The notes under the pieces were generated by a model. That model was not told the origin of the DNA, did not search any database, and saw only the letters and a list, made by a program, of their open reading frames with translations. The position numbers and the translations under genes are program-made. Positions 35,334 to 47,622 of a stretch of DNA of 64,000 nucleotides are shown here, in pieces (position 1 is the stretch's first letter; the number at the start of each line of letters is the position of its first letter). This DNA comes from Candidatus Avimuribaculum pullicola (lineage in GTDB: Bacteria > Bacteroidota > Bacteroidia > Bacteroidales > Muribaculaceae): positions 62,001-126,000 of the forward strand of contig DVKC01000030.1 in NCBI GenBank assembly GCA_018716295.1. The letters are read 5' to 3'.

Positions 35334-36215
35334 TTATTCAACTACTGTGGCCGAGATGATTTTAATGTCTTCATTTGGTCGGTCAGCACGGTTGGTCGGT
35401 ACTTTTTCTATAGCTTCAATTGTTGTCATTCCATCGACAATTTCACCAAATACGGTATATTGCCCGTCAAGGTGTGGAGTACCGCCAATTGTAGTGTATG
35501 CCTCGGTTTGCTCGTCGGTAAACACGAATGGATTTTTGTCGTATTCAGCTTGAGCTTTGGCAATTAGTTCATTGCTCAGGTTGTTTATTGCGGCAGTATC
35601 ACCCGACATGCGTAATTTCATTATTTCCTTTCGATATGGAATTACAAGTGTGTCGAGGATTTGCCTTATTCTCATGTTGGCAATTTGTGCTTGCATCTGG
35701 TTGAGTTGCTCTTGCGAGTAGTTGCGTCCTGTGACAATATAAAATTGTGAACCCGATGACTCTCGCTTTGGGTTTACCGAGTCGGCTTGTCGAGCGGCAG
35801 CCAATGCACCTTTCTTGTGGAAGAATTGTGGATATGCAATTTCGGCCTCGATGTTATAGCCAGGCCCGCCCGCACCGAGCATTGCGTCGGATGCGGCATT
35901 TTTTGAATCGGGGTCACCCGTTTGTATCATGAATTGATTTATGACACGGTGAAACAGCACATCGTTGTAGAAACCTTCTTTTACCAATTTCAGGAAATTG
36001 TCGCGGTGTTTGGGTGTTTCGTTGTATAATTCTACAGTGAAGTCGCCCATTGTGGTTTTGAAAGCGACTTTTGTCCGACCGTTGTCGGCATTTGTGCTGG
36101 TTTGTGTCATTGTTTTGTTATTGTTGTTTGTGTTATTGGCATTGCAGCTCAAGCATGTTACCGCCATGACGATAACTATTGAAATGATATTTAATATTTT
36201 CATATATTTATTCAA
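35334..36215 (-). CDS. Peptidyl-prolyl cis-trans isomerase (cyclophilin type), lipoprotein-like
   Basis: LSC lipobox; TTMGDFTVELYNETPKHRDNFLKLVKEGFYNDVLFHRVINQFMIQTGDP. Confidence 0.93.
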   Translation of the reverse strand: MNKYMKILNIISIVIVMAVTCLSCNANNTNNNNKTMTQTSTNADNGRTKVAFKTTMGDFTVELYNETPKHRDNFLKLVKEGFYNDVLFHRVINQFMIQTGDPDSKNAASDAMLGAGGPGYNIEAEIAYPQFFHKKGALAAARQADSVNPKRESSGSQFYIVTGRNYSQEQLNQMQAQIANMRIRQILDTLVIPYRKEIMKLRMSGDTAAINNLSNELIAKAQAEYDKNPFVFTDEQTEAYTTIGGTPHLDGQYTVFGEIVDGMTTIEAIEKVPTNRADRPNEDIKIISATVVE

Positions 36216-36589
36216 ATAATAGAAGTGGGGTATAGACGCTTATATATGCGTCGGAAGTTGTCGTTGCTTTGGCAAAGCTCGGCAGCATGTTCACGGTAGT
36301 CGTCACCCCAAATTCCCGAGATAAGGTCGGCGAGATATCTATGTTCACGGTCTTTGGCAATCGCAGCCTTTATGAGGGTGTCAATTGCCGATGCGTATTT
36401 TTGCGGGTCGATGGCATTCAAGTATCGAGCCGTGCTTACAATAAATTGACCTATATTGTCAACGGCGATGATGTTATCGACCAGTTCAGGTAAAATAGGG
36501 TCGATATTGTCGATATTGTTTGCTATATATTCATAAGTTAGCAATCCGTTAGGGTCTTTTGCTAATTTTTTCTTCAATATTTCGTCCAT
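36212..36589 (-). CDS. Hypothetical protein (~125 aa, helical)
   Basis: MDEILKKKLAKDPNGLLTYEYIANNIDNIDP...; overlaps the start of the downstream cyclophilin gene by 4 bp. Confidence 0.7.
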   Translation of the reverse strand: MDEILKKKLAKDPNGLLTYEYIANNIDNIDPILPELVDNIIAVDNIGQFIVSTARYLNAIDPQKYASAIDTLIKAAIAKDREHRYLADLISGIWGDDYREHAAELCQSNDNFRRIYKRLYPTSII

Positions 36590-36703
36590 AGAAATAATTG
36601 TGGATAATTGTTTGTGCCGCAAAGATAGTGCAAGGTGAGCGCAAAAGCAAAAATGTGCCCGCACAATTTTTATTTTGCCGGGCTGCATAGGCCTTATTCA
36701 AAT

Positions 36704-36783
36704 AATATAGCTGCGCCTCGGCAATACAATAAAAATCAGCGAGCTGTTTTTTTGTATTGCACTCGACTTTCGCTATATTTGCG
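36704..36783 (+). repeat. Dispersed Bacteroidales promoter-bearing repeat, copy A
   Basis: aatatagc-tgcgcctcg-gcaatacaa...ttgtattgc-actcgactttc-gctatatttgcg; contains TTTG-N19-TATATTTG. Confidence 0.75.
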
Positions 36784-36805: not shown

Positions 36806-38068
36806 GTGAGAAAGTTTTTTACCATTTGTTTAACTTTTTTGCTGGTTGCCATTTTTGCTAAGAGCTCGGAATTAAGGGCTTGCAGTTGTACTGCCGATAC
36901 TATATCTCACTTCGATACTGCGTGTGCGGAAGTTGGTAGTATCAAAGTGGAGGCGGCAAGTGATAGCGTTGTTACAAATGAAATCGGTGTTGCAGCTGTT
37001 GATACAGTAGTGAAGAAACGCAATGTAATACAACGTTTTTTCGATTATTTCGGGAATGCCAACAAGGAGCGTAGCGACAAGAAGTTTGATATAAGTTTTA
37101 TCGGTGGCCCATTTTATAATTCGGCATTGGGTGTCGGTATAGGTGTTGTCGGGTCGGGGCTTTATCGCATCAAGGGGTGCAGCCGTGAATTGCAGCCATC
37201 GAATGTGTCGATTTTCGGAAGCGTTTCGACAACAGGTTTCTATATGATAGGCATAAGGGGCAACAATATCTTTCCCGAGGAGCGGTTCAGGATAAATTAC
37301 ACGATGAATTTTTATTCCATGCCATCATATTACTGGGGAATAGGGTATGACAATGGCGACAATGACGATAATCGCACGAAGATGGATAGATGGCAAGCCG
37401 AGATTAAAGGCGAATTTATGGTCAAGGTTGCCGATAATTTTTATGCAGGGGCATTGTTGGCGTGGGATTACATACGTGGTGGCGGTGTGGAAAAGAACGC
37501 CTATCTGTTTGAAGGCATGGACTTGATTACACGCAATTATGGCATGGGGGTGACGTTGCAATATGATTCGCGCGACTTGATAAACAATGCAAGTCGTGGA
37601 GTGTATGTATGCGTAAATCAGATGTTTCGTCCACGTTGGCTGTGGAACGATTATGCTTTCAGCAGCACTGAGTTTATTGCGAGTGTTTACAAGCAGGTGT
37701 GGAAAGGTGGGTTGATAGCTGGTGACCTGCGTGGAAAATTCAATTTTGGCGATCCGTCTTGGGCAATGATGTCGAAGTTGGGTGGCAGCACAGCAATGCG
37801 AGGTTACTATGAAGGTCGATACCGCGACATGCACTATATGGCGGCGCAGGTGGAATTGCGGCAACATGTGTGGCATCGTAATGGAGCTGTAGTGTGGGTC
37901 GGAGTGGGAAACGTGTTCCACGACCGCAAGTCGTTCAAGCATATATTGCCTAATTATGGTTTCGGCTACAGATGGGAGTTCAAGAAGCGTGTCAATGTGC
38001 GACTCGATGTCGGGTTTGGCAAGCCGGGCCAGTACAGTTTCATGTTTAATATCAACGAGGCATTTTAG
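36806..38068 (+). CDS. BamA/TamA-type outer membrane (surface antigen) barrel protein
   Basis: GTG start, signal peptide; YDSRDLINNASRGVYVCV...LGGSTAMRGYYEGRYRD...GFGYRWEFKKRVNVRLDVGFGK. Confidence 0.8.
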   Translation: MRKFFTICLTFLLVAIFAKSSELRACSCTADTISHFDTACAEVGSIKVEAASDSVVTNEIGVAAVDTVVKKRNVIQRFFDYFGNANKERSDKKFDISFIGGPFYNSALGVGIGVVGSGLYRIKGCSRELQPSNVSIFGSVSTTGFYMIGIRGNNIFPEERFRINYTMNFYSMPSYYWGIGYDNGDNDDNRTKMDRWQAEIKGEFMVKVADNFYAGALLAWDYIRGGGVEKNAYLFEGMDLITRNYGMGVTLQYDSRDLINNASRGVYVCVNQMFRPRWLWNDYAFSSTEFIASVYKQVWKGGLIAGDLRGKFNFGDPSWAMMSKLGGSTAMRGYYEGRYRDMHYMAAQVELRQHVWHRNGAVVWVGVGNVFHDRKSFKHILPNYGFGYRWEFKKRVNVRLDVGFGKPGQYSFMFNINEAF

Positions 38069-46509: not shown

Positions 46510-47394
46510 TTATTGCTTGTTCTTGTGCTCATCGTCAGGCTTGGGCTTGATGATGTTGTAATCTTGGTCTTTGTATTCTGCTTGAGAGGTAAAAAGTAGC
46601 TTTAGGTTTGTGGCCTTTTTTATCCTTAGCCATGCGTTTGCCATCAATCCACCTTTGCTGTCGAGGGTGCTATTGCATGTGACGGCTCTCGCTTTGCGGC
46701 TTTTAAGCATTTTCAATTTGCCATATTTTTTCAATCCTAAAGCCATCATGCCATCTTCGCCGCGCTTGATGTGGGTGCGGTAGCCTACTTTTCGGGCCGC
46801 TTCGGTGTCGAAAGCGAGAACCATGCCCCTCACCACCAATTCAGGCCTGTTGAAATTTTGCAGCGATAGATATATGTCGCGGAAAAGTTCATAAAAGAAG
46901 AGTCCTAACTTCGAATGTCGGTCATCGGGTATAAAACTCCACAGGCCATAAGTGCATATAGCACCATTTGAAAGGTGCTTTACATGTGTGGCTATGTAAT
47001 GAGGAGGATATAGGGTGTCGCTGTCGATGCAAATGTGGTATTTGCCTTGGGCTGCATCGAGTCCGCATTGCCTGGCAAAACCAGGGCTTTGGCGGCTTTC
47101 GTTATAGTAAGTAACGCCGACATCTTTTAGCAATTGTTCGGTCGAGTCGGTCGAATTGTTGTTCACTACGATTATTTCGATAGGAAAATCGCAAATATTG
47201 TCGGTCAACGACCACAGGCAACCTAATATGTGTGTTTCTTCGTTATGCGCTATGGCAACAACCGAGCACAAGGGTTTTTCAGTTTCAAGCCTTTTGTTTG
47301 CTTTGTTGATTTTGTTGGCAATATCTTGCTTGACTGTGTGCGGAAATTCTGTAACAGGACGGTTGAAAACTTGCAAATATTTGCTATACCACAT
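46510..47394 (-). CDS. Family 2 glycosyltransferase
   Basis: PLCSVVAIAHNEETHILGCLWSL...IEIIVVNNNSTDSTEQLL...GKYHICIDSDTLYPPHYI. Confidence 0.9.
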   Translation of the reverse strand: MWYSKYLQVFNRPVTEFPHTVKQDIANKINKANKRLETEKPLCSVVAIAHNEETHILGCLWSLTDNICDFPIEIIVVNNNSTDSTEQLLKDVGVTYYNESRQSPGFARQCGLDAAQGKYHICIDSDTLYPPHYIATHVKHLSNGAICTYGLWSFIPDDRHSKLGLFFYELFRDIYLSLQNFNRPELVVRGMVLAFDTEAARKVGYRTHIKRGEDGMMALGLKKYGKLKMLKSRKARAVTCNSTLDSKGGLMANAWLRIKKATNLKLLFTSQAEYKDQDYNIIKPKPDDEHKNKQ

Positions 47395-47416
47395 GGCTGA
47401 TATCTGTTTTTATGGC

Positions 47417-47491
47417 AAATATAGCGAAAGTCGAGAGCAATACAAAAAACAACTTGTTGATTTTTTGCATTGCCGAGGCGCATCCTATATT
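47417..47491 (-). repeat. Dispersed promoter-bearing repeat, copy B
   Basis: Reverse-oriented copy of the 36704 repeat: aaatatagcgaaagtcgagagcaatacaaaaaa...gcattgccgaggcgcatcctatatt. Confidence 0.8.
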
Positions 47492-47495
47492 ATGG

Positions 47496-47565
47496 AAATA
47501 TAGCGAAAGTCGAGAGCAATACAAAAAAACAACTTGTTGATTTTTTTGCATTGCTGAGGCGCATC
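47496..47565 (-). repeat. Dispersed promoter-bearing repeat, copy C (tandem with B)
   Basis: aaatatagcgaaagtcgagagcaatacaaaaaaacaacttgttgatttttttgcattgctgaggcgcatc; near-identical to copy B. Confidence 0.8.
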
Positions 47566-47622
47566 GGCTGCTGCGCATGCAGGAAATGTGTGCGGTGGCG
47601 TGGAAATACCGATAATTCTGCG

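Follow-up and report, generated by a model that had tools for sequence, protein, structure and literature searches.

Matus-Garcia, Nijveen and van Passel (as cited in PMC4596501) reportedly described in 2012 putative mobile promoters, near-identical promoter stretches that lie before unrelated genes and are present at some orthologs and absent at others. The element analyzed here resembles them in that near-identical promoter stretches precede genes of one genome that are unrelated to each other, and its presence likewise differs between orthologous genes. Compared by their description as cited, they are set apart from the element by its unusual traits: an 80-bp hairpin that covaries over its full length including the -7 box, a boundary that coincides with the -7 box, and a gene-proximal polarity of its tandem arrays.

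BrickBuilt, a MITE of Porphyromonas gingivalis, occurs in about 19 intergenic copies with internal tandem repetition, carries bidirectional promoters and a 23-nt minisatellite between leader and tail, and has IS5-like inverted repeats (GAGACCTTTGCA) containing CTTTGCA (PMC4596501). The present element is also found in Bacteroidales and is intergenic, tandemly repeated and apparently promoter-bearing; however, it is a directional 80-bp hairpin unit, and its aligned copies have no 23-nt tandem core. With the REP/REPIN sequences associated with RAYT (PMC3733652, PMC6006769) it shares a palindromic structure, extragenic location, multiple copies and the pairing of some of them, but it has no tetranucleotide tag, needs no Y1 transposase, holds its predicted promoter in one arm and measures 80 bp. 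The sigma-ABfr consensus of Bacteroides consists of TAnnTTTG at -7 and TTTG at -33 (PMC7366714). Both motifs are found in the element, whereas ordinary sigma-ABfr promoters are devoid of its left arm, its hairpin and its covariation with the -7 box. Searches of the open-access literature turned up no account of the repeat.

The window, i.e., the whole stretch of 64,000 nucleotides that was analyzed, includes one copy reported in an earlier note as an imperfect palindrome at 36704-36783, as well as three further copies (Table 1). On re-reading of the sequence the arms and their coordinates proved correct, with inner arms gcaatacaa at 36721-36729 and ttgtattgc at 36752-36760. The copy itself is real, but turned out to be slightly longer than reported (C19:98695-98783 in host-genome coordinates). 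It also has a central A-tract/T-tract hairpin, and as single-stranded DNA its folding beats 200 of 200 shuffles (z of -2.8 and -3.1 for the two strands). The note had further claimed that the repeat carries a complete Bacteroidetes promoter, and the right arm indeed reads TTTG, 19 nt, TATATTTG, followed by 24 nt and the GTG at 36806. With TAnnTTTG at -7 and TTTG at about -33 both in place, the right arm is, by prediction, a complete promoter of the sigma-ABfr type. The GTG start of the Omp85-like gene behind it is shared with the orthologs. The second copy stands back to back with the reported one and, judging by position, serves the divergent neighbor gene. A search of the window against Rfam gave zero matches at gathering scores.

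Table 1. Copies of the element in the window, their parts and the adjacent genes
Feature	Position	Strand	Evidence
Whole copy of the element: left arm, inner hairpin and a right arm with the predicted promoter	36695-36783	+	R1 covariance-model match, 85.4 bits
Left outer arm aatatagc (AATATAGC), complementary to the -7 region	36704-36711	+	Sequence; covaries with the -7 box across copies
Inner hairpin GCAATACAA...AAAAATCAGCGAGCTGTTTTTTT...TTGTATTGC	36721-36760	+	Stem variable among copies, yet complementary
-33-like TTTG	36751-36754	+	Sequence; consensus from PMC7366714
Right outer arm gctatatt (GCTATATT)	36772-36779	+	Sequence
-7 box TATATTTG, right end of the element	36774-36781	+	Sequence; kept in orthologs with and without the element
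Gene behind the element, starting with GTG and weakly matching the Omp85 superfamily	36806-38068	+	Pfam PF01103, E=1.9e-5, 24.8 bits vs. cut-off 24
Second, diverged copy, TATCTTTG at 36620-36627	36618-36704	-	R1 54.3 bits, E 4e-10
Divergent 125-aa gene, lying 28 bp behind the second copy	36212-36589	-	No Pfam match
Copy nearest the gene in a tandem pair, with intact TATATTTG	47414-47500	-	R1 96.6 bits
Distal member of the same pair, decayed, with TATATTTCC and a lost left arm	47493-47581	-	R1 60.0 bits
Gene for 294 aa whose N-terminus resembles a glycosyltransferase by eye, lying 19 bp behind the tandem pair	46510-47394	-	

The sequence had been taken for a dispersed repeat and for one with similar elements in the intergenic regions of many Bacteroidales; genome searches support its dispersal and its occurrence in several Bacteroidales groups. 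In the host draft genome (2.4 Mb, 83% complete) 22 BLAST matches were obtained, and a covariance model, R1, built from 16 copies identified 36 non-overlapping copies that score 60 bits or more, along with about 22 that score lower. Since many of these lie near contig ends, counts from draft genomes are lower bounds. The oriented copies align as one family with two subfamilies. The consensus left arm is nnATAAGATAGGCTGCGGCTCGG, the consensus right arm is TTTG...GCGCTCGCCTTGCACTATCTTT, and the TTTG of the -7 box is invariant or nearly so in the 16 copies. The R1 tallies of other genomes, in which the same palindrome is sometimes matched on the opposite strand as well, are 38-72 in each of eight congeners and patchy in the family and the order (72 in G032, 28 in G025, 24 in G012), with 42 in G057, which belongs to another family. 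The exact two-arm pattern, applied to one genome per species, was found in 97 stretches, whose records are labeled Muribaculaceae, Prevotellaceae, Bacteroidaceae, Prevotella, Alloprevotella and Ca. Enterocola. Plasmid records contain zero matches to the cassette, and phage records contain two, both named 'Bacteriophage sp.' The better of these, MT837172.1 (1-7534), has two matching places and, by eye, PrmC-, RecX- and ComF-like ORFs; it is probably a Bacteroidales chromosomal fragment rather than a phage. In the host genome (G000) the cassettes cluster at contig ends, e.g., at C14:434, C31:271, C18:170, C17:138, C40:32313, C22:11631 and C8:14873, and are thus a probable cause of breaks in short-read assemblies. 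This calls for caution with upstream regions of these genomes, which are repeats of this assembly-breaking kind.

Distance and orientation relative to genes were tabulated, and they agree with the proposed placement as a promoter of the downstream gene. According to a simple codon-usage gene caller, which overlooked some small genes, 57 of the 58 host copies are intergenic. A codirectional gene stands at the right end of 55 of the 58 (p 2e-11) and of every one of the 36 copies that reach 60 bits, mostly at a distance of 5-50 bp. Among the 92 copies of an independent Bacteroidales set, 88 face a codirectional gene vs. 55% in the control (p 1e-18), and the order-wide median distance to the start codon is 34 bp, 15-50 bp being typical of the host and order-wide copies; selection on the right arm in the searches biases such sets toward promoter-bearing copies. 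The orientation of the left neighbor is unbiased (33/74). Many of the downstream genes, named by eye from their N-termini, look like housekeeping genes, e.g., typA, ychF, rpoN, argS, gltX, efp and fum.

In 91 distinct sequences from the genus 95% of cells are paired and double changes occur in 19 of 24 pairs, figures inflated by the use of an alignment that had been fitted to the structure. None of 500 shuffles reaches any of the five measures, and pairing falls to 40-55% once the partner is shifted by one to three columns. The whole palindrome covaries, including the -7 box with the far left end of the element. Arm pairs read without structural alignment (TATCTT/AAGATAG, TATATT/AATATAG, TACCTT/AAGGTAG) reveal the same: the -7 variants TATC, TATA and TACC are tracked by the left arm, which matches the second n of TAnn in 82% of cases vs. 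56% in permuted pairs. Given that the -7 box covaries with a site at 70 bp distance, it may be asked why a promoter is kept inside a hairpin. The inner stem has about 120 different core sequences, with loops that often read, for example, CAAG or CGAG. Hairpins at the same locus of different species are no more alike (identity 0.71) than those at different loci of one genome (0.73), which suggests that the hairpin turns over by conversion or replacement.

Tandem arrays in the host genome are polar. The gene-proximal copy has the top score in 10 of 10 arrays, and TAnnTTTG is intact in 10/10 proximal copies vs. 2/12 inner copies; inner copies read TATCTTTnn or TACTTTnn. This polarity fits two scenarios that the data do not separate: units may be added on the side that faces the gene, between TTT and G, or the arrays may arise by tandem duplication, their unused copies decaying.

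Sixteen downstream genes were traced through nine congeneric genomes. At efp, fum, dedA, ybeY, d4290 and the Omp85-like gene of the window the element is present in some species and absent in others. At all six, the -7 box and the leader are common to element-free and element-bearing species, while the sequence upstream of the box differs; the right end of the element is thus the -7 box that belongs to the gene itself. At d4290 and c32 the upstream gene has been kept, so that the differences there are truly local. At d4290, the stop codon and the -7 box are separated by ~53 nt in element-free species; in the host, a stretch of similar length leads to a decayed -7-like site and is followed by one unit of ~78 nt. 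At efp and fum the upstream neighborhood is wholly different, and rearrangement could thus explain the promoter swap. No empty site was seen between strains of one species.

We infer both promoter activity and mobility of the cassette from what was observed, namely its sequence, the number of its copies, how they are oriented and spaced, their presence at some orthologous promoters and absence at others while -7 box and leader are conserved, the covariation and the array polarity. The element is probably, on the strength of these sequence data, a mobile-promoter cassette of ~80 bp that occupies the position just upstream of existing -7 boxes and drives the gene. It would land directly before a gene in such a way that its right end is the gene's -7 box (TAnnTTT, then G) and the native leader is untouched. 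The native upstream half of the promoter would be displaced or replaced, and the cassette would then drive the gene. Arrival may proceed by insertion at or next to -7 boxes, through either a structure-recognizing recombinase acting in trans or recombination between cassettes. New units would join on the gene side, and the G would thereby be cut from the old -7 box, silencing it. Dozens of gut Bacteroidales genes, many of them housekeeping, seem to draw their promoter from this one dispersed, rapidly turning-over cassette, which, if active, would allow the replacement of promoters by a repeat to be tested directly.

A more specific proposal, which we make tentatively and rate as rather doubtful, is that the integration target is the -7 box itself. 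A unit would enter between TAnnTTT and G, silence the old start signal and rebuild an identical one at the same distance, its far end staying complementary to the -7 variant of its host promoter. A -7 box held in the stem of a cruciform or a single-strand hairpin could gate transcription by supercoiling.

The element could instead be a non-mobile, ancestral and lineage-specific promoter architecture at housekeeping genes, homogenized by gene conversion among copies and by selection, and gained or lost by tandem duplication and decay. Orthologs of typA, ychF, rpoN and c32 carry it in several species, right-arm-only half-elements stand before ybeY in G004 and G006, the arrays resemble tandem duplication, and the species-specific sharing of hairpins fits conversion. 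We nevertheless consider this explanation somewhat unlikely, since near-identical 80-bp units lie ahead of unrelated genes, the occurrence is patchy across families, and presence varies at many loci, among them gt2 in addition to efp, fum, dedA, ybeY and the window gene.

Mobility of the more familiar kind, that of a classical DDE-type MITE in which the promoter is incidental, has in its favor short terminal inverted repeats (AAGATAG...CTATCTT), a non-coding, AT-rich sequence and 36 strong copies, nearly all intergenic. It appears improbable given the strong orientation bias of the copies and their flanks, where no clear target-site duplication was seen and only a -7-like TTT is common to both sides; the left flanks often end in a -7-like CTTT, which is indistinguishable from array remnants. 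The host genome (83% complete) also has no autonomous element bearing such ends: no isolated left arm lies inside any contig, and all left-arm matches belong to cassettes, bar one at a contig end. In general, the order-wide, promoter-shaped dispersed cassette is real and resembles both REPs and MITEs; it lacks the defining features of RAYT-type REPs, and those of MITEs are partly unproven.

We regard as quite improbable that the element is punctuation combining a bidirectional terminator with a promoter, its pairing being kept for an RNA terminator hairpin. Many copies do have an A-tract/T-tract hairpin, and the stems are variable but complementary. However, a terminator scan of the region of the window copy returned none, and in several hairpin types a T-tract or G-C core is missing. 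Nor do stem mismatches display an excess of G-U over A-C (inner GT 12/AC 8 and GT 2/AC 24), and this strand test does not clearly point to sense RNA; relatedness of the copies may account for the order-wide excess of A-C. Moreover, the outer arms including the -7 box covary too, for which a terminator has no need.

The earlier note's suggestion of a REP-like element, here taken as a REP/REPIN moved by a RAYT (Y1 HUH transposase), could appeal to palindromic, intergenic, tandem units in many copies and to the Y1_Tnp genes of the host, but is hardly credible, because most element-rich genomes have no Y1_Tnp gene (among them G001 with 71 copies, G002 with 64, G006 with 67, G032 with 72 and G057 with 42, as well as G005, G007, G012 and G035), the host Y1_Tnp genes are flanked by a repeat unrelated to the element, the GTAG/CGTC tag is absent from both strands of the 16-copy consensus, and the unit measures ~80 bp rather than being a tagged hairpin of 20-40 bp. 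Linkage to RAYT/REP is largely refuted by these findings, and no linked transposase was found for the element.

Two RAYT-like Y1_Tnp genes of the host, at G000:C46:16793-17137 and G000:C46:20567-20907, have their own flanking repeats, GTGCGGCATCTCCGAAGCCGC and GCGGTTAAGCATGGTG, and constitute with them a separate REP system; one of the two is broken by a stop. A third Y1_Tnp gene is located on G000:C27.

Upstream of ybeY in G003, the left arm and the hairpin of the cassette are ~140 bp apart with a GC-rich repeat (GAAAGAGCCGTG ends) between them, apparently a nested insertion of that repeat. In the host genome, at G000:C16:23000-23900, two tandem cassette pairs flank what appears from the sequence to be a nucleotidyltransferase/HEPN-type toxin-antitoxin pair, and the end of the proximal copy lies ~4 nt ahead of the first ATG.
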